Below, piece by piece: positions 6,381-37,345 of a DNA stretch of 64,000 nt. Each line of letters opens with the position of its first letter. Positions within the stretch are counted from its first letter, which is position 1. This stretch comes from Fibrobacter succinogenes. Its GTDB lineage: Bacteria; Fibrobacterota; Fibrobacteria; Fibrobacterales; Fibrobacteraceae. Location: the NCBI GenBank assembly GCA_902779055.1, contig CACZAD010000003.1, positions 1 to 64,000 on the forward strand, in the 5' to 3' direction. Both the position numbers and the translations under genes were made by a program. The notes beneath the pieces are model-generated. The model saw only the letters and a program-made list of their open reading frames with translations. It had not been told where the DNA came from and searched no databases.

Positions 6381-7925
6381 TTATTTCACGGCGGAAATTG
6401 CCGCGAACAGCGCTTTCATCTTGTCGTGATTCTTGATGCCGGGGGCGTCTTCGATGCCGCTGGAGACGTCAATGAGTTCGGGATGGAACTTTTCGCAGAT
6501 TGTGGCGACGTTTTCGGGATTGACTCCGCCGGCAAGCCAGAGCGGGGCTCCGTTTGCTTTTTCGCGAAGGAGCGATTCGGGGATGGTCTTGCCGGTGCCT
6601 CCGGGGATTCCTTCGACTTTGGCGTCCAGGAGAATGCGGGGTTCCCCGTTTTTGCGGAGTGCCTCTACTTTGTCAAAATCGGATGCTTCGCCGATACGGG
6701 CTGCGCAGTAATGGGCGTAATCGTTGTTTTGTTCCGCTGCGATTCCGTGGAACTGCACGGCGTCGAGAATGCCTTCGCGGGCGAGCTTGATGGCGGCTTG
6801 GCCTTCGACGGAATTTGGGTCGGTAATCACGCCGACGAGAATCGGAGTGTGTGGATTCCCTCCCGCGCGGAGTTTGGTCGAGAATGACGTTACGAATTCT
6901 TCGGTCGTGAGTCTCTTGGTTGTGCTGAACACGAATCCGAGCAGGTCGGCGCCGAGTTCGGCGGCGAGGAGGCCGTCTTCTTCACGGGTGATGCCGCAAA
7001 TTTTCACGAGCGTGCGGTTACTGCGCGGCGGTTCGGCTGGCTCACCGACCTTACAAGGTCCCTGAGCTTGTCGAAGGGCGGCGTATTTCTTCCAGAACTT
7101 GCCTTGGACGTTTTCGCATCCGCCTTCGAATGCGCTGACCACGTCTTTTGCGAGCGGCGGATTCTTGGCGACGGCTTCACCGACGAGGATACCTGTGAAT
7201 CCGAGGTTGCGGGCGTATGTCGCATCGGCGGCACTCAGAATGCCCGATTCAAAAACGGCTTTGGCGGGGAGCTTGCTGCGGACGCTTGCGGGAATCAGCG
7301 GGTCGGTATGGAATGTGGCGAGGTCGCGCGAATTCACGCCTGCGACTATTATCTTGGCTGCTGCATCACCGAGAGCTGCCGTCACAACGGAGAGCTTGCG
7401 GAAATCGTCAGCTTCGCGGACTTCGACGAATGCCTGGATCCCGAACTTCTGAGCGCGTTCAGCCATCTTCACGAGCTGCCCGTCAGTCAAAATTCTGGCA
7501 ATCAAAAGTACAGCGTCGGCACCGCAGCGGTAGGCAATGTCAATTTCGTCTTCGAACAGGAGGAAGTCTTTGCGGAGAACGGCGCAGGTGTGCAATCCCT
7601 GCTGATGGCGGCGTTCCATCAAGTCTGCAACAGCAATCAAGTCGCGGAGAGAACCTTTAAAGAAGTTCCCTTCGGTGAGTACCGAAATGGCCTGAGCGTG
7701 GGCTTCGGCATAGGTTGTTGCTAGTTCCACCGGATTCAAGTCGGGAGCGATGTCTCCCTTGGATGGCGAAGCTCGCTTGACTTCAAGGATGGCGCCAGGG
7801 GTGCCCAAAAATTCCACGTGTCCACGACGACGCTTTTCGGGAATTTCCACGCCAAAGTTCAAGCCCAGCCGCTGAATGTCTTCGCGGCGCATACGCACGA
7901 TTTTTTGCAAAATGTCTTCGCTCAT
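6381..7925 (-). CDS. trpCF: Indole-3-glycerol phosphate synthase / phosphoribosylanthranilate isomerase fusion
   Basis: Two consecutive tryptophan-pathway enzymes in one 514-residue chain. Residues 1 to about 275 are TrpC (EVKRASPSKGDI, CAVLRKDFL, VFESGI). About 306-514 are TrpF (LVKICGIT with the catalytic Cys, VQFHG, IDVSSGIE with the catalytic Asp). The order C then F matches the E. coli fusion. The linker, residues about 283-301, is encoded by a dispersed palindromic repeat (LRQAQGP...VGEPAEP) that also occurs in aprA. The ATG at 7925 has AGAGG upstream. A promoter (TTGAAC, 16 bases, TAAAAT) lies close before it, so it is transcribed separately from the other trp genes. Confidence 0.95.
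   Translation of the reverse strand: MSEDILQKIVRMRREDIQRLGLNFGVEIPEKRRRGHVEFLGTPGAILEVKRASPSKGDIAPDLNPVELATTYAEAHAQAISVLTEGNFFKGSLRDLIAVADLMERRHQQGLHTCAVLRKDFLLFEDEIDIAYRCGADAVLLIARILTDGQLVKMAERAQKFGIQAFVEVREADDFRKLSVVTAALGDAAAKIIVAGVNSRDLATFHTDPLIPASVRSKLPAKAVFESGILSAADATYARNLGFTGILVGEAVAKNPPLAKDVVSAFEGGCENVQGKFWKKYAALRQAQGPCKVGEPAEPPRSNRTLVKICGITREEDGLLAAELGADLLGFVFSTTKRLTTEEFVTSFSTKLRAGGNPHTPILVGVITDPNSVEGQAAIKLAREGILDAVQFHGIAAEQNNDYAHYCAARIGEASDFDKVEALRKNGEPRILLDAKVEGIPGGTGKTIPESLLREKANGAPLWLAGGVNPENVATICEKFHPELIDVSSGIEDAPGIKNHDKMKALFAAISAVK
7022..7080. repeat. Palindromic repeat inserted in frame in trpCF
   Basis: Shares TTCGGCTGGCTCA, ACCTTA and GGTCCCTGAGCTTG with the copy inside aprA (about 36020-36078). 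It encodes the interdomain linker of TrpC-TrpF, the one place where an insertion would do little harm. Confidence 0.75.
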
Positions 7926-9869: not shown

Positions 9870-10457
9870 CTATTCAATGGCGCAATACAGTAGCGAAAGC
9901 CCCATAAGCGTGTAGAATGTTCTGTGGTGCTTTTTGAAAAGCCCTTGCAGTAGAACGCCTGCGAATAGCCATGCTAGATTGCAGATGGGGCCTGTAAGCG
10001 GCAAAAACAAACCGAGAAAGAGTAAATGCGGAAAATCCTGGTGGTAGGGGAGCATATAGGTCGTGATTGCCGTGAGGCAGAACACCATGATTTTGACATT
10101 CGTGAGTTGCACGAAAAGCCCAGTGCGAAAGCTTCCGGTTGTGCGACTGTTGCGGATTTCTTCGAGTGGCTTGAACGCCTGAATTAAAAGGCTTATGGCG
10201 AGGAATGTGATGTAAATTGCTCCAACGAAAGAAAATATCTTAATGAAATTTCCAAACGCACTGCTGATAAAATAAACAATAAAAACGGATGCTAGCGAGA
10301 CAATCGTGTATCCTGTGAAAAGACCATACCACTGCTTTATCGCTATGTTTTTCCCGCTACCCATTGCCACCGATAGCGAACATAGATTCGCCGGTCCTGG
10401 GGTAATTCCTGAGATGAATGCATAAAGCAAAAATGAAAGTGCAATTTCTAGAGACAT
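9870..10457 (-). CDS. LysE/RhtB-family amino-acid exporter
   Basis: 195-residue inner-membrane protein with about six hydrophobic segments and the family signature SGITPGPANLCSL near the N-terminus. Members export lysine, threonine, homoserine, methionine or related amino acids. It is the last gene of a four-gene operon (metY, methyltransferase, DddL-like cupin, exporter), 15 bases after the cupin gene. The context suggests a sulfur-containing substrate such as methionine, S-methylmethionine or a breakdown product; this is inference. Confidence 0.8.
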   Translation of the reverse strand: MSLEIALSFLLYAFISGITPGPANLCSLSVAMGSGKNIAIKQWYGLFTGYTIVSLASVFIVYFISSAFGNFIKIFSFVGAIYITFLAISLLIQAFKPLEEIRNSRTTGSFRTGLFVQLTNVKIMVFCLTAITTYMLPYHQDFPHLLFLGLFLPLTGPICNLAWLFAGVLLQGLFKKHHRTFYTLMGLSLLYCAIE

Positions 10458-10472
10458 TTAACCTTTTGCTGC

Positions 10473-11078
10473 TTATACGTATTTCGAGAGAGTTTTGACG
10501 TCCTTGCCGCTCCAGGTGTAAAGGGCGAGCATGGGCTCGTTCTCTGTTTGCATGGAATGGATGTGGTTCGATGGATGCAGAATGAATTCGCCAGGGCCTC
10601 GTATTTGTGAATGCCCGTCGAGAGTCCAAATGGCGTGCCCGGAAAGAACAACGTAAAGCTCTGTTGCGGGGTGCAGGTGTGAGGGGTAAAAGGTGTTTTT
10701 GCCAAGAAGCGTGAACCCAAAACAAAATTGCTCATCGCGATAGGGGGCTTCCGGACCAAGAATTTCACCCCATCCCAATTGTGTGTCGATATCGGCCATA
10801 TCGGGGCGAGGCTCGTAATTGTATTTCCACGGCAAGTAGGGAAGGGCTGGTTCGAGGGCTTTCAAAAAACTGTTGGTCTCGGAGTTGCCATACTTGACTG
10901 CCTCTTTGATCCAACGGATTAAGGGGGAGTTGCTCTTTTCGAATTTACCCAAGGGTTTGGGAATATCGTGTACGGCGAAATTGGCTGCTTCTAGTCCGAT
11001 CTTATCGTCTATCTTGGCTCGCTTGAAAAGAAACTTTTGAGATTCTTCGATTAAATTGTGAATGACGACTTGTTCCAT
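10473..11078 (-). CDS. Cupin resembling DMSP lyase DddL
   Basis: 201 residues. The C-terminal half is a cupin with the pattern FTLLGKNTFYPSHLHPATELYVVLSG, then HPSNHIHSM and LALYTWSG. This matches my memory of the DddL/DMSP-lyase cupin family, including likely metal ligands His134, His136, Glu140 and His174 and the Tyr142 thought to act in catalysis. DddL splits dimethylsulfoniopropionate into dimethyl sulfide and acrylate. Here it is sandwiched between a methionine S-methyltransferase-like gene and an exporter, so its substrate may be S-methylmethionine or a related sulfonium rather than DMSP. The N-terminal 80 residues are helical and unassigned. A generic metal cupin is the alternative. 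Confidence 0.65.
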   Translation of the reverse strand: MEQVVIHNLIEESQKFLFKRAKIDDKIGLEAANFAVHDIPKPLGKFEKSNSPLIRWIKEAVKYGNSETNSFLKALEPALPYLPWKYNYEPRPDMADIDTQLGWGEILGPEAPYRDEQFCFGFTLLGKNTFYPSHLHPATELYVVLSGHAIWTLDGHSQIRGPGEFILHPSNHIHSMQTENEPMLALYTWSGKDVKTLSKYV

Positions 11079-11085
11079 AAATGAT

Positions 11086-12045
11086 TTATCTTGTACTGGA
11101 TTTTAATACGGCGACGGTGTGGCCTATGGTTTCGCCCTGTTTGAATGCTTCGTATGCTTCGGTGGCTGTGAGCTTGGATGAATCGAGTGCTTTCTCGATT
11201 TCGAAAGCGCGGCTTCCGGATTCTTTGACGGAAACGTTTGCGAATGCTTTTTGCAGATCGTTTGCACGGTAGAAATGGAACGGCCCAAGTCCTGCTTTTT
11301 CTTGTGCGGCGTATCCCGAAATCACGTCTTCTGGCTCGGCTTGAACTTTCCAGGAGTATGTGAAAATCTCGGACTTGAGCCCTGCAAGTTCCCCAAGCTT
11401 TATGAAGGCGCTTAATGGAACGCGACCGCCGAGTGTAGAATACACGGCACCGTCTTCAGCCAAGAATTCTTTGGCTTGCTTGAGCGCGAGGTAATGAAGA
11501 TCAAGCATTTGCTCGTGAACAAAAGCAGGAATCGTTTCTGACCGTTTTTCGAGATAGTGGCCGCTATTCCGCTTATCTTCGATTTTGGTGTCGTTTGCGA
11601 GAGGAACATTGGGGAGGTTCTCGTAAATGACGTTGAATTTCCGCTTGCCGTTCTGGAGTGGCTGCAATAGATCTCCATCGCCAAATTCAAAATCAATGGA
11701 ATTGATTTTTTGGACGTTGTTTCGGATGTTTTGAGCGGCTGTGGCGACAACGCTTTTTTGCAAATCCGTAAAACCAACTCGCGTTGCTCCCAAAAGTTCG
11801 ATGGCGGTCAATACATCAATGCCGGAACCGGTACCGATCGAGGCGAAGGCTTCGATGTCCTTGCCTTGCTTTTCGCGGATCAGCTTGAATGCGGGGGCCG
11901 CAATGTAGGCGACCCAGTCGCTTTTGATGTCTTCTGTTTTGGGCAAGTAAGCGTGGTCGGCAACTTCAATCGAAAGGTAGTCCTTGATGCGCTTTGGAGC
12001 CCCTTCCAGGGAAAGGTATTTGGCTACGTCGACGATGATACTCAA
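11086..12045 (-). CDS. SAM-dependent methyltransferase resembling methionine S-methyltransferase (MmtN-like)
   Basis: 319 residues. A class I methyltransferase fold is shown by SIGTGSGIDVL (residues 69-79) and ENLPNVP (142-148, in the place of an NPPY-type motif). The stretch from about 176 on (FVHEQMLDL ... GGRVP ... GL ... W) follows the layout of the N-terminal domain of plant methionine S-methyltransferase (FVEDQ ... GGRPG ... GF ... W). The bacterial version, MmtN, is about this length and makes S-methylmethionine in DMSP synthesis. The start is a TTG directly after the metY TAA, with GGCGG upstream, so translation is probably coupled. Another O-, N- or S-methyltransferase activity is possible. 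Confidence 0.6.
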   Translation of the reverse strand: MSIIVDVAKYLSLEGAPKRIKDYLSIEVADHAYLPKTEDIKSDWVAYIAAPAFKLIREKQGKDIEAFASIGTGSGIDVLTAIELLGATRVGFTDLQKSVVATAAQNIRNNVQKINSIDFEFGDGDLLQPLQNGKRKFNVIYENLPNVPLANDTKIEDKRNSGHYLEKRSETIPAFVHEQMLDLHYLALKQAKEFLAEDGAVYSTLGGRVPLSAFIKLGELAGLKSEIFTYSWKVQAEPEDVISGYAAQEKAGLGPFHFYRANDLQKAFANVSVKESGSRAFEIEKALDSSKLTATEAYEAFKQGETIGHTVAVLKSSTR

Positions 12046-13389
12046 TTACTTACCGCCTTTGACACTTGCGTTAATTGCTTGTTCAAAGTCGGCGATGATG
12101 TCGCGCGGGTCTTCGATGCCGACGGAAACGCGGATCATGTCATCCGGGATTCCTGCGGCAAGCCTGTCTTTCGGCGAAAGCTGCGAATGCGTACTTGTTG
12201 CCGGATGTAGAACGCTTGTGCGGGCATCACCCACATGCACCACGAGGGCTGCGACCTTCAATGCCTTGACGAATGAGCGGATGGCCGCTTTGCCCCCCTT
12301 GAGTCCGAATGTCAGGACGCCGCTACCGCCCTGATAATCGAAGTATTTGCGGATGCGCTTGAAATACGGGCTAGATTTGAGTCCTGGATAGCTGACCCAA
12401 TTCACTGCGGGATGTTTGGACAAAAATTCTGCCAATGCAAGGGCGTTGTTGCTGTGCTGCGGCATTCGCAAATGGAGCGTTTCAAGGCCCAAATTCAAAA
12501 GGAATGCGTTGAACGGACTTAATGCGGCGCCGTAATCGCGCAAGAATTGAGCGCGTGCCTTTGCAATGAATGCGGCTCGTCCAAATTTTTTTGTGTAAGA
12601 GGTGTTTGCGTATTGGGCGTCCGGTTCCACGAGGTCTGGGAACTTTCCGTTTTCCCAGTTGTAGTTGCCACCGTCAATGACGACACCGCCAAGCGCGACG
12701 GCGTGACCGTCAATGTACTTTGTCGCCGAGTGAATGACGACGTTTGCGCCGAGTTTTAGCGGCTTTACGAGAAATGGCGTGGCGAGTGTGTTGTCGACGA
12801 GGAACGGAACGTCAAATTCTTTGGCGAGCTTGGAAAACTTTTCAAAATCCAAAATGCCCAAGGCCGGGTTGCCAATCGTTTCACCGAAAATGAGCTTGGT
12901 GTTCGGGCGGAATTCCTTGCGAAGTTCTGCAATGGAATCATCCGGGTCGATGAACGTCGTTTCGATGCCGAGTTTGGAAAGCCTTACGCTGAGCAATGTG
13001 TAGCTCCCGCCGTAAATATGCTTGCTTGCTACAATATGGTCGCCCGCTTTCACGAGGTTCGAAATGGCGAGGAGTACTGCGGATTGCCCTGAAGCTGTTG
13101 CGACTGCGCCTACGCCGCCTTCGAGTTCCGTAATCTTGCTTTCAAATGCCGCTACGGTCGGGTTTCCGGTGCGGGTGTATTTGTTGCCAGATTGCTTGAG
13201 TGCAAAAAGTCTTTCGACTTCGTCAACATCTTCGTACTTGTATGTCGTGGATTGAAAAATTGGGAGGACTCGCGGTTCGCCAATCTTGGGCTTCCAACCG
13301 GCTTGTAAACACTTTGTTCCAAAATTCCACTGGCTCGGATCAGAAATATTTGTAGATCCAGATTCATTCTTTGTTATTTGCTTGGACAT
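12046..13389 (-). CDS. metY: O-acetylhomoserine sulfhydrylase (MetY type)
   Basis: PLP enzyme that makes homocysteine (or methionine, with methanethiol) from O-acetylhomoserine and reduced sulfur. 447 residues; the PLP lysine lies in HSATKYIDGH, with YTRTGNPT and ETIGNPALGI as family landmarks. The N-terminus is about 20 residues longer than in most relatives. First gene of an operon with the MmtN-like, DddL-like and LysE-like genes, behind a sulfur-box promoter at 13424-13453; GGAGG precedes the ATG. A second, rather different MetY lies at 22187-23413. The enzyme may supply methionine to the next gene product. Confidence 0.9.
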   Translation of the reverse strand: MSKQITKNESGSTNISDPSQWNFGTKCLQAGWKPKIGEPRVLPIFQSTTYKYEDVDEVERLFALKQSGNKYTRTGNPTVAAFESKITELEGGVGAVATASGQSAVLLAISNLVKAGDHIVASKHIYGGSYTLLSVRLSKLGIETTFIDPDDSIAELRKEFRPNTKLIFGETIGNPALGILDFEKFSKLAKEFDVPFLVDNTLATPFLVKPLKLGANVVIHSATKYIDGHAVALGGVVIDGGNYNWENGKFPDLVEPDAQYANTSYTKKFGRAAFIAKARAQFLRDYGAALSPFNAFLLNLGLETLHLRMPQHSNNALALAEFLSKHPAVNWVSYPGLKSSPYFKRIRKYFDYQGGSGVLTFGLKGGKAAIRSFVKALKVAALVVHVGDARTSVLHPATSTHSQLSPKDRLAAGIPDDMIRVSVGIEDPRDIIADFEQAINASVKGGK

Positions 13390-13423: not shown

Positions 13424-13480
13424 AATATAGAACGCACTTATAGCTTTGTCCAATACTAAATAAATATCATGTATTATAGA
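13424..13480 (-). promoter_or_regulatory. Sulfur-box promoter of the metY-mmt-cupin-exporter operon
   Basis: -35 TTGGAC (13448-13453), 18-base spacer, -10 TATATT (13424-13429), with ATTTAGTA directly upstream of the -35 and CTATAA about 17 bases farther out. One of eight copies of this arrangement in the window. Confidence 0.85.
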
Positions 13481-15291: not shown

Positions 15292-17034
15292 TTACGCGAA
15301 TGTCTTCAACGCTCTTACGAGTGCGTCGATGTCATCGGGCGAGTTGTAGAGTGCGAGAGTGGGTCGCACGGTACTTTCGTATCCGAAATGGCGTAAGACA
15401 GGCTGTGCGCAGTGATGCCCGGTGCGAACGGCAACGCCGTAAGCGTCGAGTCTCTTGCCCACTTCTTCGTCGGAGTATCCGTCGAGCTTGAAGGCTAGCG
15501 CTGATGCCTTGTTGAGTGCGGTTCCTACAAGGTGGAGGCCCTTGACGGTCTTCAATTCCTTGAGGCCGTACTGCAACAGTTCATGTTCCCAGCGGAATAC
15601 GCACGGCATACCGATTTTAGTGAGGTACTGGAGAGCTGCACCGAGGCCAACAGCGTCGGCGATGCTTCCGGTACCAGCTTCGAACTTGTTCGGAATTCCG
15701 TTGTAAATCGTGCGTTCGAACGTCACGTCCGCAATCATGTTGCCACCGCCGTGATACGGACGGGCGGCTTCGAGCAATTCCTTCTTGCCGTAAACGACAC
15801 CGATGCCGGTCGGAGCAAACACCTTGTGTCCAGAGAACACGAAGAAGTCTGCGTCGAGAGCAGCGACATTCACCGGAATATGCGCGATGGACTGAGCACC
15901 GTCAATGAGGATTCTCACGCCGTGTCTATGAGCGATAGCGATGAGTTCTTCGATCGGGGTCACAGTGCCGAGCACGTTCGATACATGCGTCACGGAGACG
16001 AACTTGGTGCGCTTCGTGAACAGTGCTTCGTAATCGTGGAGCTTGAGCTGACCCGTGGAATCGCACGGAATCACCTTGATAATCGCGCCTGTTTCTTCGG
16101 CAATGAGCTGCCAAGGAACGATGTTGGCGTGATGTTCCAGGATGGAGACGATGATTTCGTCACCCGGCTGGAGCGTCGGCTTCACGTAGGCGTTTGCAAC
16201 CAAGTTAATGGCTTCGGTCGTGCCGCGAACGAAAACAACTTCCTGAGAAGACGGAGCGCCGATAAAGTCACGAACGATGTTGCGTGCATTTTCGTAGGCG
16301 TCTGTCGATGCGGCCGCGAGCGTGTGTGCGCCACGGTGAACGTTGGAGTTTTCGTTTTCGTAGTAGTACTTGAGGCGGTCAATGACAACCTGCGGACGCT
16401 GCGTCGTTGCACCGTTATCGAGCCAAACCAGCGGATGACCGTTGATCTGCTTCGAAAGAATCGGGAAGTCCGAACGGATCTGCGACAGAGTCTTGGAACC
16501 GATGCGGATGGAATCGTTGCGAGAGTTTGCGCCGCTGTTTGCAGAACCCGTCTTCACGGAGTCGCCACCGAGAGATGTCGGAGCATCGATCTGGCGATTT
16601 GCTTCGGCAGCCTGCGTCTTGGAAACGACCTTCGGGGAGTAACCCTGAGCCGGTGCGGGTGCTGTCGGAATATCGCTCAGCTGCGATGCGAACTGCGATT
16701 CGGGAACCGCAGGGGCTTCGACCGTGTTGAGCCAGGTGTCTGTAGAACTTCCGCCGTAGGCAAACGGAGCCGAAGATGTCGGCTGGTCGCCATAAGTCGC
16801 AAAGGGATGTTCCCAGTCGAAGGCTGGAGTCTGGCTGATGGCTGCGGCACCCTGAGCTGCACTGACGCCCTGAGCGGCAGAGGCATTCTGCGCTTCGGGA
16901 GCGGCGGGGGTTGCTGCATATGCGCTATCCGTCAAATCCGGGAAATACGCATTTGCCAATTGCTCCAGTTCAGCCGCATTGGGAACTCCGGCGAGTTCTT
17001 CCAGCGATCTGGTTTCTGGATTATTCGTAGTCAT
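15292..17034 (-). CDS. Encapsulated cysteine desulfurase (family 2A encapsulin cargo)
   Basis: SufS-type PLP desulfurase: releases sulfur from cysteine as a protein persulfide. 580 residues from the ATG at 17034 (GAGG 12 bases upstream), overlapping the encapsulin stop by 14 bases. The catalytic domain starts near residue 190 (IRSDFPIL) and has the PLP lysine in FSGHKVFAPTG and the active Cys in TGHHCAQP. The first about 185 residues are Ala/Pro/Ser-rich and apparently disordered, with short islands such as EELAGVPN and AFDWEHPF. This is the layout known for cargo of SrpI-like encapsulins, where the N-terminal tail directs packaging. The cargo loads elemental sulfur into the shell in studied examples. 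Confidence 0.93.
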   Translation of the reverse strand: MTTNNPETRSLEELAGVPNAAELEQLANAYFPDLTDSAYAATPAAPEAQNASAAQGVSAAQGAAAISQTPAFDWEHPFATYGDQPTSSAPFAYGGSSTDTWLNTVEAPAVPESQFASQLSDIPTAPAPAQGYSPKVVSKTQAAEANRQIDAPTSLGGDSVKTGSANSGANSRNDSIRIGSKTLSQIRSDFPILSKQINGHPLVWLDNGATTQRPQVVIDRLKYYYENENSNVHRGAHTLAAASTDAYENARNIVRDFIGAPSSQEVVFVRGTTEAINLVANAYVKPTLQPGDEIIVSILEHHANIVPWQLIAEETGAIIKVIPCDSTGQLKLHDYEALFTKRTKFVSVTHVSNVLGTVTPIEELIAIAHRHGVRILIDGAQSIAHIPVNVAALDADFFVFSGHKVFAPTGIGVVYGKKELLEAARPYHGGGNMIADVTFERTIYNGIPNKFEAGTGSIADAVGLGAALQYLTKIGMPCVFRWEHELLQYGLKELKTVKGLHLVGTALNKASALAFKLDGYSDEEVGKRLDAYGVAVRTGHHCAQPVLRHFGYESTVRPTLALYNSPDDIDALVRALKTFA

Positions 17035-17983
17035 AGTATTCGCCAACCTCTACGTCTTCAAGGACTGCGATAGCGTCGTCGGAAAGGATTGCTGCAGAGC
17101 AGTAGAGCGACAGGAGGTAAGATGCGACACCCTTGTTGTCGATACCGCGGAAACGCACGGAGAGGCCGCGAGAGTGTTCGTTCTTGAGGCCAGCCTGGAA
17201 GAGACCGATAACGCCACGCTTTGCTTCGCCAGTACGGACGAGCAAGATGTTGGTCTTGCCACCCTTGGACTTCGGATTCTTCACGCCATCGACAAGGAGC
17301 TTGTCGGTCGGGACGAGAGGAATGCCGCGCCAGGTGAGGAACTTGCCACCGGCGATGTCAACGACGACAGGCGGCACGCCACGGCGGGTGCATTCGCGTT
17401 CGAACGCTGCAATAGCACGCGGGTGGGCGAGGAAGAAGGACGGTTCCTTCCAAACCTTGGAGATGAGTTCGTCGAGATCGTCCGGAGTCGGGCGGCCATC
17501 GTCGCGGAGCGGCTGGATGCGCTGGGAGTCAGCGATGTTCTTCAAGAGACCGTAGTCGTCGTTGTTGATGAGCTGGCTTTCCTGACGTTCGCGGAGAGAT
17601 TCGATAGCGAGACCGAGCTGTTCCTGAACCTGATCATACGGGGAGCTGTAAACGTCTTCGATAGCGGTGTTGACGTTGATGATCGTGGAGATGGAGTTGA
17701 GCTTGTATTCACGCGGTTCGGTTTCGTATTCGACGTAGCCTTCCGGGATAATGTCAGACTTCTTGGTTGCGCTGCAGAGAACGTCGAGCGGTGTCTGGCC
17801 TTCGACGACCTTGTTCACGCGGAAAAGACCTGTTTCGAGACCCTTGAATTCAAGGAACTTGGTGAGCCACTTGGGCGTGAGCGCGCCAAATTGCGGCTTG
17901 GTCTTGGTGACGTTCGCCAGGTTGTAAGCGGCCTTGGCGCCGAGGGCATTAATGCCCGTGTTCTTTTCTGCTTCATTTGCCAT
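17021..17983 (-). CDS. Family 2A encapsulin shell protein (SrpI-like)
   Basis: HK97-fold shell protein that assembles an icosahedral nanocompartment. 320 residues. Stretches such as TPKWLTKFLEF, VEYETEPREY, SPYDQ, ELISKVWKEPSFFLAHP and FLTWRGIPLVP match the cyanobacterial SrpI protein closely. The gene for its desulfurase cargo overlaps its 3' end, then comes cysE, so the three form a sulfur storage/mobilisation unit. AGGTAAA precedes the ATG. The upstream region lacks the TTGGAC-18-TATATT sulfur promoter seen in neighbouring units, so regulation may differ. Confidence 0.95.
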   Translation of the reverse strand: MANEAEKNTGINALGAKAAYNLANVTKTKPQFGALTPKWLTKFLEFKGLETGLFRVNKVVEGQTPLDVLCSATKKSDIIPEGYVEYETEPREYKLNSISTIINVNTAIEDVYSSPYDQVQEQLGLAIESLRERQESQLINNDDYGLLKNIADSQRIQPLRDDGRPTPDDLDELISKVWKEPSFFLAHPRAIAAFERECTRRGVPPVVVDIAGGKFLTWRGIPLVPTDKLLVDGVKNPKSKGGKTNILLVRTGEAKRGVIGLFQAGLKNEHSRGLSVRFRGIDNKGVASYLLSLYCSAAILSDDAIAVLEDVEVGEYYDYE

Positions 17984-18138: not shown

Positions 18139-19605
18139 TTATAACCATGCGCCTTCGTGCGAGAACATGATGTCCTTCATCGCGTCGATGCCGCCCTTCA
18201 GGTTGTACAGAGGACCGGTATAACCCGCTTCGCGTAAGGTGTTGATGGCCAGTTCGCTGCGTTTGCCCTGCTTGCAGACGAAGATGGTGTCCTTGTTCGG
18301 GTCGAGTTCCTTTTGTCTGCGGACGAGCTGTCCAATCGGAATCACGATGGCATTCGGGAAGCGCAAAATGGCGCGTTCGTGCGGTTCGCGGACATCCACG
18401 ATGGTCATATCGTCGCCGTTGTCGATGCGCTTGGCGAGCTCTTCGGGCGTGAATCCTTCTACAGGAGTTTCGTTTGTTGTCTTCAATCCGCAAAGTTCTT
18501 CGTAGTCGATTTCTTCGACGCTTGTAATTGTCGGGTTGTTTCCGCAAATTGGGCAATGGCAATTGCGTTCGACCTTGAGAATTCTCGATGTTAAGTACAA
18601 ACTATCGACGTGGAGAATTTTGCCGTTCAAGTGTTCGCCGATTCCCAAGATGAGCTTCAGCGCTTCATTCGCCTGGATGCTGCCGATGATGCCTGGGAGC
18701 GGGCTGATGGCGCCACCTTCTGCGCAAGAGGGGATGAGCCCTGCCGGCGGAGGAGACGGGTATTGGCAACGCAAGCACGGACCGCCATCCAAATTGAATA
18801 CGCCGACTTGTCCTTCGAACTGGTAAATCGCACCGAATACAACCGGAATGCCGTGCAGTGCGCAAGCGTCGTTGATCAGGTAGCGAGCCTTGTAGTTGTC
18901 GGTACAGTCGATGACGATGTCGTAGCCTTCGATTTCGGCTTCGATGTTCGAGGCGTCAAGCTGTTCCTTGACGGCTTCGAAGACGATGGTCTTGTTGATG
19001 TTTTTGACTTTGTCCTTTGCGGAGGCGACTTTGGGACGCTTGACATCGCGTGTACCGTGGATGACTTGGCTCTGCAAGTTTTCAAGCGAAACTTCGTCAA
19101 AATCGATGACCTTGATGGTGCCAACGCCTGCGGCGGCGAGGTACTGGATGACCGGAGAACCGAGGGCTCCTGCGCCTACGACGACCACTTTTGCGGCCTT
19201 GATGCGCTTTTGGCCCTTGACGCCGATATCGCGGAGCATCAGGTGCTTGCCAAAACGCTCGATTTCAGAATCGTCAAACGAAACAGCCTTGCGTCTTTCG
19301 TCCGAAATCAGGCTCTCTACGGGAGAGTCGGTCGGTGCGCCGCCAGCGATGGCGGGCAAAAGCAGAATTTCGGTATCTTCTGGAAGGGCGGCGTCCCAAA
19401 TCGTTTCGACGGTCAACTTTTTGTTGTTGACGTAAATCTGGATGAAGTCCCTGACCTTTTTATTGTCGTCGTAAAGAACCTTTTCTCCTTCTGGGTATGT
19501 ACTGATTAAATGTGCCAATGCCTTCCGGACTGTATCTACGGGGGCATCTACTTGGGAGTTCTTCCCAAAGAAATTCCTGAGCGTTGCTGATATGTAAATT
19601 CTCAC
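18139..19605 (-). CDS. MoaD - ThiF/MoeB E1 - rhodanese three-domain fusion
   Basis: 488 residues. About 1-92 is a ubiquitin-fold MoaD-like carrier ending LLLPAIAGGAPT. About 110-350 is an adenylating E1 domain (VVGAGALGSPV ATP loop, CTDN, catalytic Cys in IPSCAEGG, zinc pairs CLRC and CPIC). About 390-488 is a rhodanese with active Cys in FVCKQGKRS. MOCS3-type proteins have E1 plus rhodanese; here the carrier is fused as well. The carrier's GG is internal, so it must be cut free or act in a linked form. A JAMM peptidase gene lies 250 bases upstream. The GTG start has CGGAG seven bases upstream. A sulfur-box promoter is at 19682. Confidence 0.9.
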   Translation of the reverse strand: MRIYISATLRNFFGKNSQVDAPVDTVRKALAHLISTYPEGEKVLYDDNKKVRDFIQIYVNNKKLTVETIWDAALPEDTEILLLPAIAGGAPTDSPVESLISDERRKAVSFDDSEIERFGKHLMLRDIGVKGQKRIKAAKVVVVGAGALGSPVIQYLAAAGVGTIKVIDFDEVSLENLQSQVIHGTRDVKRPKVASAKDKVKNINKTIVFEAVKEQLDASNIEAEIEGYDIVIDCTDNYKARYLINDACALHGIPVVFGAIYQFEGQVGVFNLDGGPCLRCQYPSPPPAGLIPSCAEGGAISPLPGIIGSIQANEALKLILGIGEHLNGKILHVDSLYLTSRILKVERNCHCPICGNNPTITSVEEIDYEELCGLKTTNETPVEGFTPEELAKRIDNGDDMTIVDVREPHERAILRFPNAIVIPIGQLVRRQKELDPNKDTIFVCKQGKRSELAINTLREAGYTGPLYNLKGGIDAMKDIMFSHEGAWL

Positions 19606-19681
19606 TTTTTTCTCCGTACATTAAAAAGTGGCTGTTCCGTACAAAATTTCCCACAATACTTGTAGGATTTTTTCAAGCCGA

Positions 19682-19740
19682 AATATAGAACGGAAAAAGG
19701 AGTTTGTCCAATACTTAATTTTTATGCACTCTTATTGATT
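19682..19740 (-). promoter_or_regulatory. Sulfur-box promoter of the MoaD-E1-rhodanese gene
   Basis: -35 TTGGAC (19706-19711), 18-base spacer, -10 TATATT (19682-19687), with AAAAATTAAGTA upstream. Fifth to sixth bases of the extended -10 read CCGTTC as in the other copies. Confidence 0.85.
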
Positions 19741-19858
19741 TTTTCTATGACTAAAGGCTTTTTGTTGGTTTTGGTTATTACTACAGCGCGGGAGGGGATC
19801 TTGGACGTCGTTAACTACAAAAGTTACGCGTTTTCAGTTCGTTGTTTAAAGGACTAGT

Positions 19859-20248
19859 CTAAACTGATTTCTTATAGCTTTTAACATCCACCACGCCTTG
19901 GGCGGTGACGGACATAATGACATATAAAAGGCCGGGAACCATGTATTTGCGGTCTTCGTCAGAAAGAATTGCCTTGCAATTCGGGTGCGAGTGGTAAAAT
20001 CCGATGATTTCAAGCTCGCTCTTATCGAGTTCGCGCTCGATGTTGTAAAGGAATAAGGGATCGATGCTGAAATGGGTGGCTTCTTCTCCGCCGTGAATCT
20101 GGTTTTCAACTTCGCGGATTTCGGTGACTTCTATTTCACCCTTTTCGGACTTTTTTCCAACCAAAATGCCACAGCATTCGCTAGGGAATGCTGTTTTTGC
20201 GGCTAAAGCCATTTGTTCCGAAACAATTTTGCTAAATTTGGTTGTCAA
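19859..20248 (-). CDS. JAMM/MPN+ metallopeptidase 1
   Basis: 129 residues. The JAMM zinc motif is complete: Glu in ECCGIL, then YHSHP, and SDED after nine residues. Bacterial members trim sulfur-carrier proteins to expose the C-terminal Gly-Gly or free the amino acid built on it (Mec+, QbsD, HcyD). The start is a TTG with a strong AAGGAG seven bases upstream; no ATG is available before the catalytic Glu except one at codon 13. A hairpin separates it from the second JAMM gene upstream. Its substrate could be the GGGQ carrier or the internal GG of the neighbouring fusion. Confidence 0.88.
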   Translation of the reverse strand: MTTKFSKIVSEQMALAAKTAFPSECCGILVGKKSEKGEIEVTEIREVENQIHGGEEATHFSIDPLFLYNIERELDKSELEIIGFYHSHPNCKAILSDEDRKYMVPGLLYVIMSVTAQGVVDVKSYKKSV

Positions 20249-20325
20249 AATTTTCTCCTTAGAAGTGCCCCCGGAATCGGAATTTCACAAGGATCCCGGG
20301 GACACCATTGTACGGAGACTCAAAA

Positions 20326-20358
20326 GAGCGCCTTCGCTATTAAGCGGAGCGCTTTTTT
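20326..20358 (-). terminator. Hairpin between the two JAMM genes
   Basis: AGCG-C-CTTCGC pairs with GCGGAG-CGCT across a six-base loop, next to the stop of JAMM 2. The T-run is stronger on the plus strand, so on the minus strand it may act as a partial terminator or RNA-stability element. Confidence 0.45.
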
Positions 20359-20360
20359 AA

Positions 20361-20771
20361 TTATTCAATCACCAAGCCTTCGTTCGTGGCGTTCACTCCT
20401 TCGATGTGGAAGGAATTGAGTACCGGATTGGCACGGTCCATCAGCGAAAGGATCAAGTAGCTGGCCTTGCTGTCGAAGGCGAGGCGCTTGTCTTCGTCCG
20501 AGGGGCGCGACGGGGACTCGGGATGAGAATGCCAGTTGCCAAGCGGGGACAGACCATTTTGACGCATGTCCTTGATGGCGGCGAGGTGTTCCTTGGGATC
20601 CAGCGAAAAATGTTCGTTGGAATGGTCGATATTGGTGAGCAAGTAAACCTTTTCGATATGCTTATTTTCGCCATCGATACGCCCTGCAATCAGCCCGCAA
20701 GCTTCTTCGGGCAGGTTCTTTTCTGCATGCTCCAATATCTTTTGATATTCAGCTTTTGGTAACGTTATCAT
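20361..20771 (-). CDS. JAMM/MPN+ metallopeptidase 2
   Basis: 136 residues from the ATG at 20771 (AAGGAA upstream); an earlier ATG at 20795 lies inside a palindromic repeat. Zinc motif complete: Glu in EEACGLIAG, WHSHP, SDED. Only distantly similar to JAMM 1, so the two probably have different carrier substrates. It follows the ThiF/MoeB gene by 66 bases and belongs to the metY-tusA-carrier-E1 operon, which matches the Wolinella HcyS/HcyF/HcyD arrangement for protein-thiocarboxylate methionine synthesis. Confidence 0.88.
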   Translation of the reverse strand: MITLPKAEYQKILEHAEKNLPEEACGLIAGRIDGENKHIEKVYLLTNIDHSNEHFSLDPKEHLAAIKDMRQNGLSPLGNWHSHPESPSRPSDEDKRLAFDSKASYLILSLMDRANPVLNSFHIEGVNATNEGLVIE

Positions 20772-20787
20772 TGAAATTCCTTTTTTA

Positions 20788-20822
20788 GATGTCATCCCGG
20801 CCTTTGTGCCGGGATCACCTTT
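20788..20822. repeat. Palindromic repeat GTCATCCCGG...CCGGGATCACC
   Basis: Complete copy of the dispersed palindrome in the thiF-JAMM 2 spacer, with CCCGGC/GCCGGG arms. Confidence 0.8.
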
Positions 20823-20837
20823 TACCGGATACGGCTC

Positions 20838-21647
20838 TTAATGCTTCAGATCGCACACAGCTTGTTCGTAGTCGATCAGATGGTCAATCGTCGGGTGGTC
20901 ACCGCAGACTGCGCAATCCTTCGTGTGCGTCGGGAGCTTAATTTTGCGGAATTCCATCGTGAGTGCATTGTAGGTGAGCAAGTAACCCGTGAGCAGGTTA
21001 CCGACACCGAGAATGTACTTGACGGCTTCCATCGCCTGGAGGCTACCGATAACACCGCCCATAGCGCCGATCACGCCTGCCTGCTTGCAAGTCGGCACGG
21101 CATCTTTTGGAGGGGGTTCCTTGAAAACGCAGCGGTAGCACGGGCCCTGACCCGGAACGTATGTCATGAGCTGACCCTGGAAGCGGATAATGCCCGCGTG
21201 AGAGAACGGCTTCTTGGCCATGACGCATGCGTCGTTGATGAGGAACTTTGCCGGGAAGTTGTCGGTTCCATCAATGATAAAATCGTAATCCTTGATGAGG
21301 TCCATGATGTTTTCGCTGGTGACGAACGTGTGGTACGTAATCACCTTGACATCCGGATTCATCGCTTCCATCGTTTCCTTGGCGGACTGCACCTTGGGCT
21401 TGCCCACATCCTTTGTGGCGTGGATAATCTGGCGCTGCAAATTGGAAAGATCAACGACGTCTGCATCGGCAATACCGATGGTGCCAACGCCAGCGGCGGC
21501 GAGGTACATGGCGACAGGAGCGCCGAGGCCACCTGCACCAATGACAAGCACCTTGGCGTTCAAAAGCTTCTTCTGGCCCTTTGCACCCACTTCCTTGAGG
21601 ATGATGTGGCGGGAATAGCGTTCGAGTTGTTCGTTAGTAAAAGCCAT
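20838..21647 (-). CDS. ThiF/MoeB-family sulfur-carrier adenylyltransferase
   Basis: Activates the C-terminus of the small carrier encoded just upstream by adenylation, the step before thiocarboxylate formation. 269 residues with the Arg finger region YSRHIIL, ATP loop GAGGLGAP, the catalytic Cys in VPTCKQAG and zinc cysteines CYRC and CAVC. No rhodanese domain, unlike the 18-19 kb fusion. Its ATG overlaps the carrier's TAA (TAATG), a sign of translational coupling and 1:1 supply. By analogy with HcyF of Wolinella it would serve homocysteine synthesis with the MetY in the same operon. Confidence 0.92.
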   Translation of the reverse strand: MAFTNEQLERYSRHIILKEVGAKGQKKLLNAKVLVIGAGGLGAPVAMYLAAAGVGTIGIADADVVDLSNLQRQIIHATKDVGKPKVQSAKETMEAMNPDVKVITYHTFVTSENIMDLIKDYDFIIDGTDNFPAKFLINDACVMAKKPFSHAGIIRFQGQLMTYVPGQGPCYRCVFKEPPPKDAVPTCKQAGVIGAMGGVIGSLQAMEAVKYILGVGNLLTGYLLTYNALTMEFRKIKLPTHTKDCAVCGDHPTIDHLIDYEQAVCDLKH

Positions 21648-21862
21648 TACTGACCACCTCCCATGAAGTAGAGGAATTCGACGGTGTCGCCATCCTTGAG
21701 GGCGGTCGTTGCAAACTTGCCGTTTTCGACAAATTCATCGTTCAGGGAAACGGTCACATACTGCGGCGTTTCGACCTTTTCTTGTTCAATGAGTTCTGCG
21801 ACGGTGAGGCCGTCTTTAACTTCTTTCTTGTTTCCTGCAACAGTAATAAACATCTTTGTCAT
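21647..21862 (-). CDS. ThiS/MoaD-like sulfur carrier with C-terminal GGGQ
   Basis: 71-residue ubiquitin-fold carrier (beta-grasp pattern VTVAELIEQE, VSLNDEFV, LKDGDTVEFLYF). The chain ends MGGGQ, so the Gly-Gly needed for adenylation is masked and must be exposed by a peptidase; two JAMM genes lie downstream. Related carriers that need trimming are QbsE and Wolinella HcyS. Two ATGs are possible (21862 and 21853); the first lies within a palindromic repeat that also places a GGAGG upstream. Position between tusA-like and E1 genes, behind metY, supports a role in carrying sulfide equivalents to O-acetylhomoserine. Confidence 0.88.
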   Translation of the reverse strand: MTKMFITVAGNKKEVKDGLTVAELIEQEKVETPQYVTVSLNDEFVENGKFATTALKDGDTVEFLYFMGGGQ

Positions 21863-21903
21863 CCCGGCTGAAGCCTGTCATTCCCGCCTCCGAGCGGGAA
21901 TCT
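21856..21903. repeat. Two palindromic repeats overlapping the carrier start
   Basis: GTCATCCCGGCTGAAGCCTG joined to TCATTCCCGCC...GGCGGGAATCTCC. The first overlaps the carrier start codon and the second lies where its ribosome-binding site would be. Confidence 0.65.
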
Positions 21904-21905
21904 CC

Positions 21906-22157
21906 TTAATCCCCGACCTTTTTCACGATCAGCGTAAATGTTCCGTCCTGATTGTCGTCAAGCTTGAGGATTTGGTGGCCTTCTTCCTTGAGGCTGCGCG
22001 GCACATTCTGCACCGGTTCACCGTCGTTCAAGCGGATTGCGAGAATCTGGCCTTCGTCAAGTTCTTCGAGAGCGACTTTTGCCTTCACGAAAGTGGTGGG
22101 GCATTTGACGTCGGTGACGTCGACGGTATCGTCAATTTTGAATTCTTGTTCTGCCAT
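21906..22157 (-). CDS. TusA-like sulfur-transfer protein
   Basis: 83 residues. N-terminal VDVTDVKCPTTFVKAKVALEEL corresponds to the TusA CPxP-...-K-AL signature, with CPTT in place of CPxP. The single conserved Cys would carry a persulfide. It sits between metY and the ThiS-like carrier in the same operon, so it may hand sulfur from the sulfite reductase, rhodanese or TusA fusion to the thiocarboxylate machinery. ATG with CGGAG nine bases upstream. Confidence 0.85.
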   Translation of the reverse strand: MAEQEFKIDDTVDVTDVKCPTTFVKAKVALEELDEGQILAIRLNDGEPVQNVPRSLKEEGHQILKLDDNQDGTFTLIVKKVGD

Positions 22158-22186
22158 TGTTTGTTTTCTCCGTACGTTAATTGTTA

Positions 22187-23413
22187 TTAAATGTTCTTGA
22201 TTGCCTGCTCAAAGTCTTCCTTGAGGTCTGCGATGTCTTCGATGCCCACGCTGATGCGGATGGACCCTTCGAACACGCCTGCATTTTCCTTCTGTTCCTT
22301 GGTGCCATGCGTAAAGATGGTGCTGTCCGGATGGATGACGAGCGTGCGCAAGTCTCCAATGTTCGTGGCAATCGTAGCGTATTTCAAGTTGTTGATGAGC
22401 TTGAATGCCTTTTCCTTGGTGCCTGCGTCAATCGAGATGATGGCACCGCCTTTGCCGCCGAACTGTTTTTGGACCAAGTCGTAGTAGGGGCTCTGCTTGA
22501 GGGCGGGGTAGTTGACCTTGATGCCTTCAAATCCCTGCAAAAATTCGGCGAGCTGCAAGGCGTTGCTACACAAGCGTTCCATGCGAAGTCCCAAAGTTTC
22601 GAGTCCGAGGGAATTCAGGAATGCGGTTGCCGGGGCAATGCAACAGCCCACGTTACGCCAGATACCATTGCGGAGCTTGGCGAGGTAAGCGAACTTGCCA
22701 AATCGCTTGTATTCTTCGAATCCCTTGTAGCGGGCCGGATCCCACTTGAAGTTTCCGCTATCGACGATGATGCCGCTGATGGCGCTACCGTTGCCGTTGA
22801 TGTACTTCGAAGAAGAATGTACGACGATGTCGGCTCCAAATTCAAAAGGACGGACGAGGTAAGGGGTGGCGGTCGTGCTGTCGGCAATGAACGGGACGCC
22901 TGCTTCGTGGGCTGCGTCAGCGACGCTCTGCAAATCGACAACATTCAGTTTCGGATTGCCGATAAGTTCCGTGAATACGGCTTTCGTCTTTTCGTTCAAC
23001 TGCTGCCTGACGCTTTCGGCAGTGACTTCCGTGACAAAGCGAGTCTTGATGCCGAACGGTTCCAGGTCGTGGAACAAGTCAATCGTGCCACCAAAAAGTC
23101 CGGCGCTGGCAATGACCTCGTCACCGGATTGCAAAATGTTCAAAAGCGAAAGCGTTACTGCGGCCATACCCGAAGAGCAGGCGACTGCGCCAATGCCCTT
23201 TTCGAGCGAAGAAATACGGCGTTCAAAAGAATCTGTTGTTGGATTTCCGATACGGGTGTATGCAAAACCGGGGGCTCTGTTGTTAAATACGGCTTCAAGT
23301 TTTTCGGCGGATTCCTGCGAAAAAGCACTTACTTGATAAATGGGTGTCAGCGTTGATCCCGAATTCTTTTCACTTCCAAAGTCATGATGCAATAACGTGG
23401 TATTAAAATCCAT
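22187..23413 (-). CDS. metY: O-acetylhomoserine sulfhydrylase / Cys-Met metabolism PLP enzyme
   Basis: 408 residues. PLP lysine in HSSSKYINGNG; YTRIGNPTTDSFERR and ELIGNPKLNVVD are family landmarks. Heads an operon with tusA-like, carrier, ThiF and JAMM genes, so it most likely takes sulfur from the carrier thiocarboxylate rather than free sulfide, as shown for Wolinella MetY. It is clearly different from the MetY at 12046-13389, which has its own partners, so the two probably use different sulfur donors. Behind a sulfur-box promoter at 23454. Confidence 0.9.
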   Translation of the reverse strand: MDFNTTLLHHDFGSEKNSGSTLTPIYQVSAFSQESAEKLEAVFNNRAPGFAYTRIGNPTTDSFERRISSLEKGIGAVACSSGMAAVTLSLLNILQSGDEVIASAGLFGGTIDLFHDLEPFGIKTRFVTEVTAESVRQQLNEKTKAVFTELIGNPKLNVVDLQSVADAAHEAGVPFIADSTTATPYLVRPFEFGADIVVHSSSKYINGNGSAISGIIVDSGNFKWDPARYKGFEEYKRFGKFAYLAKLRNGIWRNVGCCIAPATAFLNSLGLETLGLRMERLCSNALQLAEFLQGFEGIKVNYPALKQSPYYDLVQKQFGGKGGAIISIDAGTKEKAFKLINNLKYATIATNIGDLRTLVIHPDSTIFTHGTKEQKENAGVFEGSIRISVGIEDIADLKEDFEQAIKNI

Positions 23414-35242: not shown

Positions 35243-35557
35243 CTAGTATTTGTTGGATTCTTTTGGGTCAATGTCAATGTGCTTTACGTTTCCGTCGGGA
35301 AATTCCACAATCCAGCGGTTAAGTCCATTGACTTTTTCGGTATGTACTTTGCTGCCCTTGCCGCCAATGTCTTCGCCGAGGAAGAATCGGATGGCGTGAA
35401 CGGGGCACTCCTTGATGCACGAAGTGCAACCCCAGCAATCTTTGGGGTACTTGATAAAGGCTTTTTTCTGTTCGTTAATCTTGATCAGCGTGCCGGGACA
35501 AACGTCGTGACATCTCCCGCAGCCGATGCAAATGTTTGGATCAATGTTGATGCTCAT
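35243..35557 (-). CDS. aprB: Adenylylsulfate reductase beta subunit
   Basis: 104-residue iron-sulfur protein that passes electrons to AprA for APS reduction to sulfite and AMP. Two [4Fe-4S] motifs: [11 protein letters not shown] and [11 protein letters not shown], with more cysteines of the pattern just after each. Shorter than the dissimilatory AprB (about 150), lacking most of the C-terminal tail. Its start overlaps the end of aprA by 17 bases, a sign of coupling. Confidence 0.92.
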
Positions 35558-37258
35558 AATTCTTTTGCCCTTCTGCGGTAAGTTCGCGTGTGAAAGTCTT
35601 GATTTCGCCGTTGACTAAGCGGGAATTCACATACTTTCGCCAGTGAATGTTGTCTTTTTCGGGATAGTCCCAGTTTTCTGCAAAACTGTGCCAGCGTGTT
35701 TCGTGGCGTGTGGCGAGATGCGCGATGACGCTCTTGCAAACGGTGAGGCGTTCCTTTAGCTCGTAGATGTACATGACTTCTTGCAAGTCGGTGGCGCTAA
35801 GCTTGCCCGTAAGGCTTTCGATATCGTCAATTTTTTCTTTGGCGATATTGAGATGCTTTTCGGTATAGCCGTAGCCTGTCGTGATTCCGCCTGCATATTC
35901 GTCCATGGCGATTTGCATAGCTTCTTCAAGTTGCTCTGTCGTGTATAGCGAGTTTTTCTGCGATAGATATGTTTCGATTTCAGCGACGTGTCGGGCGATT
36001 TCTGCGTCTTTGATGGTTGCTTCGGCTGGCTCAGCAACCTTAAATCGTGCATCAGGTCCCTGAGCTTGCCGAGGGGCCGGTGAAGCCTTTATATATTCCA
36101 CAGCCGACTTTGCTGCAATTTCGCCTTCGGCAAGTGCGCCCGTTACATACTTTTGCGGGCAACCTCCGGCCACATCGCCTGCGGCGTAAAGCCCTTCGAT
36201 GCTTGTGGCGCGCTTGGTGTCGACCCAGTAACCGCTTGCTGTGTGGCCGCCTACAATGTAAGGCTCCGTACCTTCGATTTCCACATTTGCTTTGGAGGGC
36301 GTTTCGTTTTCAAGCCAACGAATTGTTTGCGAAGGAGCCATGTTCAGGTACGCCTTCAAAAGCGATTCTTCTTGTTCTGCCGAAATCCCTTCAGTTCTCA
36401 AATAGCATGGCCCACGACCTTCCAGATTTTCGGCGACGGTTCCGTAAACGCGTTCCGAAGTAGAAATGCCGTATTTCGTTTCGTAAACTTCTCCGAGCGA
36501 ATTGACCTGCTTGGCGCCCACGCCTTGCGCGAGTGTTCCTGTCGGTGCGATTGTATCCTTGCAACGGAGCGCGATGAATCGCATTTCGAATGTTGTCATT
36601 TCGGCGCCGTGGCGAATTCCCATGGCGTATCCGGCTCCCGTGTTGAATGGCGGGTACCACATTTTATGCCTTGAAAACCGGCAGCTCCGCCTGTCGCGAT
36701 AATGACGGCTTTGGCTTCAATCGCGTAAAATGTATCGTTCTCGATTCCAAAACCGTATGCACCATCGATTTTATTGTCGTGAACTGAAAAGTCAAAGATG
36801 TTGACATAATTCAAAACGGTCACATTGTTCAACTTCTTGACAGCATTGGCTAAAATCGGCTTGATGTTTTCGCCATTAATCTTGATATTACGATTTCCGC
36901 GCGTGACGTATTTGCCGTCCTTGTCCTTCAAAATAACAAGCCCAAGCTTTTCCAAGTGCGCCGTGATTTCGTTAAATCTTTCTGATATAGAATAAAGTAA
37001 ATCTTCGCGGACGATTCCATCGGCGTCTTTCTTTGCATATTCTACATAATCCTTGGGCTCGCGGCCTTCGGTGATGTAGGCGTTTAAAGCGTTTACGCCA
37101 GCGGCAAGGCAGCCACTGCGTTTGATATTCGCTTTTTCGACGATAAGAATTTTGAGGTCCGCTGCATTACTTGCGTTTTTTGCTGTAATTGCAGCATAGC
37201 AGCCTGCCGTTCCACCGCCAATAATCAATAAGTCTGTTTTTATTCGTTCTATCTTCAC
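35541..37258 (-). pseudogene. aprA: Adenylylsulfate reductase alpha subunit, frameshifted
   Basis: FAD enzyme reducing APS to sulfite. N-terminal part (37258 to about 36665; GTG start with GGAGG) has the FAD motif IIGGGTAGCYAA. It runs to GGAAG and then leaves frame. The remainder (about 36680 to 35541) is in another frame, beginning FSRHKMWYPPFNTGAGYAMG. Relatives read roughly GGAAG-LYRPNNPG-FSRHKMW, so about eight codons plus one base look deleted at the junction. The rest is intact. Near the C-terminal third, an in-frame palindromic repeat encodes RQAQGP...VAEPAEA. Either the gene is inactive in this strain or there is an assembly error. First gene of the apr-cysDN operon. Confidence 0.85.
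36020..36078. repeat. Palindromic repeat inserted in frame in aprA
   Basis: Shares TTCGGCTGGCTCA, ACCTTA and GGTCCCTGAGCTTG with the trpCF copy. It lies in a surface-like linker between the FAD domain and the helical C-terminal domain. Confidence 0.75.
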
Positions 37259-37285: not shown

Positions 37286-37345
37286 AATATAGAACGCGAC
37301 TTTTCAAACGTCCAATACTAAATTCATATCGCCGTTGATAGAAAA
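37286..37345 (-). promoter_or_regulatory. Sulfur-box promoter of apr-cysDN
   Basis: -35 TTGGAC (37310-37315), 18-base spacer, -10 TATATT (37286-37291), GAATTTAGTA upstream, CTATCAA farther out. Confidence 0.85.

Follow-up and report, generated by a model that had tools for sequence, protein, structure and literature searches.

A conserved metY'-methyltransferase-cupin cassette of rumen Fibrobacter and Butyrivibrio as a candidate sulfonium pathway in sulfur acquisition

The minus strand of a 64,000-nucleotide stretch of a Fibrobacter succinogenes genome (GenBank assembly GCA_902779055.1, contig CACZAD010000003.1, positions 1 to 64,000; hereafter the window) carries a conserved cassette of three genes: metY', of the O-acetylhomoserine sulfhydrylase family, a class I methyltransferase gene (MT) and a gene for a cupin of the dimethylsulfoniopropionate (DMSP) lyase family. 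Two independent structure searches reach sulfonium enzymes, MT falling on MmtN and the cupin on DddQ. We propose, tentatively and with a confidence that stops somewhat short of probable, that downstream of MetY' a sulfonium compound is formed by MT and then split by the cupin through beta-elimination, in the service of sulfur acquisition. A sulfonium pathway was also the theme of the initial annotation, which was made from the sequence alone, and it stands as the likely theme; the MmtN-like layout of the MT fold, the family of the cupin and the sulfur-regulated operon are also upheld.

Results

The conserved unit comprises three genes

The locus was initially described as a four-gene operon that ends in an exporter. 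The packing is as described: open reading frame (ORF) coordinates agree on four minus-strand genes separated by gaps of 0, 7 and 15 bases, the start codon of MT (TTG) standing immediately after the metY' stop.

12046-13389, minus strand: metY', 447 aa, O-acetylhomoserine sulfhydrylase family, pyridoxal 5'-phosphate (PLP) enzyme, catalytic Lys motif SATKY kept; TIGR01326
11086-12045, minus strand: MT, 319 aa, class I S-adenosylmethionine (SAM)-dependent methyltransferase, MmtN-like fold, GTGSG 71-75, Asp94
10473-11078, minus strand: cupin, 201 aa, DMSP-lyase family PF16867; Y131, H134, H136, E140, Y142, H174
9870-10457, minus strand: LysE-family translocator, 195 aa, PF01810; co-directional, not a conserved part
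13426-13455, minus strand: sulfur box TATTGGAC-N14-GTTCTATA, 66 bases upstream of the metY' start, 0 mismatches

The conserved core, however, is three genes and not four. The LysE gene is a bystander: of the 20 full Fibrobacter loci, just 2 have it next to the cupin gene, and elsewhere it lies several kb off, has the other orientation or was not found. Its product matches PF01810 (33.9 bits, cut-off 25.6), and the nearest curated model is that of a cysteine/O-acetylserine exporter (NF007653; 96.9 bits, below the cut-off of 193). Since the gene is not conserved with the unit, LysE was rejected as exporter of the product. The broader idea that the operon makes and exports a compound is likewise at odds with the position of the unit in a sulfate-assimilation regulon, which is described below.

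Distribution of the cassette

The nearest named relatives of the source genome (3.88 Mb, estimated contamination 7.9%) are Fibrobacter metagenome-assembled genomes, many of them rumen F. succinogenes. MT and the cupin gene are adjacent in 20 of 20 complete Fibrobacter loci, and metY' was found in exactly those 20 of 101 relatives that carry MT, a set of genomes that are not independent samples. Both genes are present even in a genome (G030) where they lie 41 kb apart. Each cassette-bearing genome tested contains one PF16867 protein; two cassette-free genomes contain none.

The same triplet, in the same order, occurs in another phylum, in four rumen Butyrivibrio genomes (loci L057, L058, L105 and L106). 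Identity between the window and the two Butyrivibrio genomes that were fully compared is 74-76% for MetY', 58-60% for MT and 46-48% for the cupin. By contrast, the identity of MetY' to the housekeeping MetY reaches only 52-54%. Such a pattern is expected of cassette transfer between rumen bacteria. The cassette was present in 1 of 397 Lachnospiraceae genomes sampled and in 4 of 79 in the Butyrivibrio genus sample; within Fibrobacterota it was seen in just two genera, both from a single family. Three of the four Butyrivibrio loci (L105 6032-6370, L106 5320-5673, L057 8020-8358) also encode, beside the cassette and on the opposite strand, a second, small cupin (112-117 aa), which matched no NCBIfam model.

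A second group of Fibrobacter loci (group 2) has a different arrangement, the MT-cupin unit being transcribed apart from metY' and standing beside metK and a gene for an SsuA-type binding protein of the sulfonate family. In two of these loci (L031, 2472-6941; L034, 1934-6883) metY' follows genes for an FtsX-type permease and a LolD-type ATPase and precedes one for a binding protein of the SsuA family, which scores 129 bits against TIGR01728, short of the cut-off. This set of permease, ATPase and binding protein is perhaps an uptake system for an organosulfur source. In one genome of a sister genus (G633; L108, 8948-11384) a transposase-like ORF splits MT while the cupin gene, metK and the binding-protein gene remain, which implies that the pathway is dispensable.

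MetY' is a separate subfamily

MetY' scores above the subfamily cut-off of TIGR01326 (559 bits against 495) and has the general architecture of MetY, including the PLP lysine motif (SATKY/SGTKY). It differs in belonging to a separate subfamily common to Fibrobacter and Butyrivibrio: 44 positions are invariant in seven MetY' proteins and absent from eight reference MetYs, with some changes close to conserved motifs (QYAN replaces SYHG, and YTRTGNPT replaces YTR[IL]xNPT). In the genomes searched, MetY' was seen only together with MT and the cupin. Cassette-bearing genomes keep an ordinary MetY too, from which it follows that MetY' has a separate job of its own, and the private substitutions suggest a nucleophile other than sulfide.

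The methyltransferase resembles MmtN in fold

MmtN is the methionine S-methyltransferase of marine bacteria. When the predicted fold of MT, a Rossmann domain with a cap domain, was compared to the PDB with Foldseek, the top nine matches were all MmtN structures (7vvv, 7vvw and 7vvx; E 2e-14 to 6e-13), with TM scores of 0.50-0.64 to the MmtN chains. The best match to any other protein had an E-value of 3e-9, more than three orders of magnitude behind. The fold match to MmtN (PDB 7VVV/7VVW/7VVX, PMC9135737), with which the N-terminal domain of plant methionine S-methyltransferase (MMT) was considered, covers nearly the full length of MT. The likeness extends to the GxGxG motif (GTGSG, 71-75, in MT), to the aspartate that binds the SAM ribose (Asp69 in MmtN, Asp94 in MT) and to a C-terminal extension past the Rossmann domain.

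The sequences, in contrast, are only 17-20% identical and give no significant match. No curated family (Pfam, NCBIfam-type models) matched MT above cut-off, and a search of the PDB with the MT profile placed MmtN fourth (E 0.94). Direct sequence proof of MT as an MmtN was sought by pairwise, profile and hidden Markov model (HMM) tests, which neither confirmed nor refuted it; the fold is the one strong link. Nor are the residues that contact methionine in MmtN, Arg132 and Glu250 (PMC9135737), conserved. The first aligns with Lys154 in the window MT and with Glu or Val in Butyrivibrio MT, and MT has nothing equivalent to the stretch around Glu250, which reads [ED]K[ED]F in two MmtN proteins, the alignment being approximate there; MmtN Cys121 is Asn in MT. 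The neighbours differ also: MT stands with MetY' and a DMSP-lyase-family cupin, and not with DMSP-synthesis, nonribosomal peptide synthetase (NRPS) or homocysteine methyltransferase (HMT) genes.

What survives of the earlier label "MmtN-like" is the class I motif and the layout of the fold; the sequence does not separate MT from other class I methyltransferases, and methionine, then named as the methyl acceptor, is disfavored by the lack of conserved counterparts to Arg132 and Glu250. To file MT as MmtN is not justified. MT probably works in the manner of MmtN, by transfer of a methyl group to a thioether sulfur, but with an acceptor that is larger than methionine or otherwise different.

A search for MT homologues on plasmids gave only a weak PrmC match. 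An mmtN gene was encountered on plasmid p_4 of Rhizobium lusitanum (L110, 3567-7346), its product sharing 64% identity with R. indicus MmtN across 90 aa; its neighbors are polyketide synthase genes and a gene resembling that for diaminopimelate decarboxylase, and the locus is likely a sulfonium-based natural product cluster.

The cupin has a complete DMSP-lyase site

By its profile match the cupin is a member of PF16867 (DMSP_lyase; 86.4 bits, cut-off 27), and the cupins of the other cassette genomes tested are likewise above cut-off. Its best PDB matches, by sequence and by fold, are DddQ-type structures (predicted local distance difference test, pLDDT, of the model 92). Six residues are essential to catalysis in DddQ: Tyr120, His123, His125, Glu129, Tyr131 and His163 (PMC4437653). 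In an ungapped alignment these correspond to Y131, H134, H136, E140, Y142 and H174 of the cupin, and all six are invariant in 15 sequences. The cupin shares with DddQ, DddL and DddW the fold with its N-terminal helical part as well as the active site and the family profile, and as judged from these features it should be competent as a lyase. It differs from characterised or annotated members in being only about 22-31% identical to them, in its association with a methyltransferase and MetY rather than with acrylate catabolism, and in its occurrence in rumen anaerobes rather than marine bacteria. The earlier designation "DddL-like" is right as to family and loose as to subtype, the nearest solved relatives being of the DddQ type. 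On plasmids, PF16867-family cupins stand in unrelated catabolic or transport operons, and no methyltransferase partner was found in these plasmid neighborhoods.

A sulfur box precedes the operon

A sulfur-box promoter had been noted ahead of the operon, and this was confirmed. The window contains 4 copies of the pattern AGTATTGGACAA-N12-GTTCTATAT, where 0.00 would be expected. When the whole genome was searched for a looser box, TATTGGAC-N14-GTTCTATA, with one mismatch allowed, 12 sites were returned, 8 of them inside the window, compared to 0 for a reversed-pattern control; with up to three mismatches there are 10 matches in the window against 0.13 expected. Boxes stand ahead of the metY' operon, of a ThiF-rhodanese gene, of a second metY-like gene that has TusA/ThiS/ThiF genes after it and, among others, of genes for sulfite reductase, a sulfate-type ATP-binding cassette (ABC) permease and a rhodanese/TusA/DsrE2-type protein. 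By this shared promoter box the operon is a predicted member of a sulfur-assimilation regulon, and, to judge from the functions of the neighboring box-preceded genes, sulfur limitation would induce it.

The box is also conserved. In every group-1 Fibrobacter locus it stands, with 0 mismatches, 57-103 bp upstream of metY', and in group 2 it stands, with 1-3 mismatches, about 62 bp before MT; a random 330-bp piece typically gives a best match with 7 mismatches. The presence of the box before metY' in one group and before MT in the other shows that the regulatory link follows the MT-cupin pair through rearrangement.

Neither the window region nor six related loci gave an Rfam match above the gathering threshold to a riboswitch, of the SAM type or any other. 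Two matches to microRNA families near 15.2 kb are below the gathering threshold and meaningless. Behind another box (37288-37317) lie two overlapping minus-strand frames (35541-36662 and 36596-37258) whose translation, an FAD-binding reductase-like protein, resembles the adenylylsulfate (APS) reductase AprA; a frameshift or sequencing error may account for the split.

Other features of the neighborhood

Upstream of the operon are cysE, a gene for a SufS-type cysteine desulfurase, an encapsulin gene and an extended series of genes for sulfur relay and sulfate assimilation. The SufS-type gene lies between the encapsulin gene and cysE; its product has about 200 extra N-terminal residues and is encoded just downstream of the type 2A encapsulin shell gene (15292-17046 and 17021-17983, minus strand). 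The shell protein is SrpI-like (PF19307, E 2.5e-92), and the extended SufS-type protein is probably an encapsulated cysteine desulfurase. Further upstream, the sulfur-relay cluster (18139-23413, minus strand) has a layout as in protein-thiocarboxylate methionine synthesis:

18139-19605, minus strand: ThiF-rhodanese protein
19859-20248 and 20361-20795, minus strand: two JAMM-like proteases
20838-21647, minus strand: second ThiF
22187-23413, minus strand: second MetY-like gene
within 18139-23413: small ThiS-like and TusA-like reading frames

On the other side of the operon (6381-7925, minus strand) is a TrpC-TrpF-like fusion; a stretch within its linker, LRQAQGPCKVGEPAEPPRSN, resembles a dispersed repeat inserted in frame.

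Discussion

The order of the operon, the three chemistries and the regulon together fit a route that runs from MetY' through a sulfonium to a beta-elimination that releases methionine. MetY' would couple O-acetylhomoserine not with sulfide but with another thiol, and the resulting S-substituted homocysteine would have a carboxylate on its other arm, two carbons from the sulfur; examples are S-(2-carboxyethyl)homocysteine from 3-mercaptopropionate and cystathionine from cysteine. The MmtN-fold MT, with SAM, would then methylate the thioether sulfur, so that a poor leaving group becomes a sulfonium. Finally the cupin, using DMSP-lyase chemistry (a metal-held carboxylate, with Tyr142 as base), would remove the alpha-proton of the carboxylate arm and expel the thioether, yielding methionine and an acrylate or dehydroalanine fragment. 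We infer the formation and cleavage of a sulfonium as the joint function of MT and the cupin, and, less firmly, which thiol serves as substrate and that methionine is released. That the cassette constitutes a third route to methionine from O-acetylhomoserine, drawing its sulfur from an organic thiol and passing through no free homocysteine on that branch, is accordingly a doubtful extension of the proposal, and one we rate as rather unlikely.

Several observations weigh against the proposed sulfonium route. The MT model has a mean pLDDT of only 76, with a weak N-terminus and loop (152-167); hhalign gives a probability of 1.3% for MT against MmtN, and pairwise z-scores (0.1-1.1) are not significant. 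An MmtN HMM ranks MT first after MmtN itself, with PrmC-type proteins interleaved. The 20 Fibrobacter genomes may form one clade, in which case co-occurrence within the genus partly reflects shared descent, and neither a sulfur box nor a riboswitch was found upstream of the Butyrivibrio operons. Lastly, the net methyl balance offers no gain over cystathionine lyase chemistry, so that any advantage must come from the sulfur source.

It is also conceivable, if unlikely, that the acceptor is methionine itself: MetY' would make methionine or homocysteine, MT would make S-methylmethionine (SMM), and the cupin would cleave SMM to dimethyl sulfide (DMS) and a C4 fragment, either by taking a beta-proton or through an unusual 1,3-elimination. 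The nearest fold to MT is after all a methionine S-methyltransferase, MetY is part of the methionine pathway, metK adjoins MT in group 2, and the cupin is in the DMSP lyase family. Apart from the missing methionine contacts, however, DddQ-type lyases deprotonate the carbon alpha to the carboxylate and eliminate a leaving group at the beta position, and the sulfonium of SMM is gamma; cleavage of SMM, the reaction first suggested for the cupin, is thereby disfavored. The loss of sulfur as DMS would, moreover, be odd for genes under a sulfate-assimilation box. An SMM cycle like that of plants and of Group II MmtN organisms is unlikely because no stand-alone SMM:homocysteine methyltransferase (HMT/MmuM) was present in five cassette-bearing Fibrobacter genomes that were tested, where PF02574 matched nothing but a frame of MetH size (about 1220 aa).

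Less probable again is that MT converts a thioether derived from methionine into DMSP or into a similar osmolyte or signal, and that the cupin recycles this product to DMS and acrylate when sulfur is short. Every catalytic residue of a DMSP lyase is present, and cupin DMSP lyases act on both DMSP and dimethylsulfoxonium propionate (DMSOP) (PMC10686828). Against this, no DMSP-synthesis gene stands beside the unit, a single operon would both produce and destroy the compound, the unit was seen here only in two gut and rumen bacterial groups, and a dedicated MetY would not be needed.

We regard as equally improbable a reversed order of events, in which MT and the cupin free methanethiol or another methyl-thiol from a thiol or thioether in the environment, for example S-methylcysteine, and MetY' fixes it to O-acetylhomoserine to give methionine. 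Enzymes of the MetY family accept methanethiol, plant-derived S-methyl compounds are expected in the rumen, and the regulon is one of sulfur scavenging; a sulfonium lyase, however, yields a thioether and not a thiol, and the leaving group for the cupin would need to be a thiolate, a reaction outside known DMSP-lyase chemistry. Most improbable is a non-sulfonium function, with MT methylating N or O of an unrelated metabolite on which the cupin acts as isomerase, hydrolase or dioxygenase: the non-significant sequence similarity of MT to MmtN and the unrelated operons of plasmid cupins, which hint at a functionally broad family, would allow it, but that both nearest PDB folds should be sulfonium enzymes by chance is unlikely, the complete lyase site is invariant, and the sulfur box and MetY' tie the unit to sulfur.

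Sulfonium synthesis and DMSP-type cleavage are regarded mainly as marine and plant chemistry. Each of the three families is already known, and what appears undescribed is that they occur in combination, with a MetY reserved for the unit, in the rumen and under the control of a sulfate regulon. The initial annotation knew of no operon pairing these families in a gut-type fiber degrader, and our search of the literature (subscription journals not covered) agreed, finding neither a description of the cassette nor any link of Fibrobacter to DMSP or SMM metabolism. MmtN-fold and DMSP-lyase-family enzymes are here paired with a dedicated MetY in anaerobic fiber degraders of the rumen, in two phyla and, in Fibrobacter, behind a sulfate-assimilation promoter. 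If the proposed sulfonium route is correct, it would mean that unreactive C-S bonds can also be broken by methylation and then elimination, would give a DMSP-lyase-family cupin a function outside DMSP metabolism, and would bear on the turnover of sulfur and methyl sulfides in the rumen.

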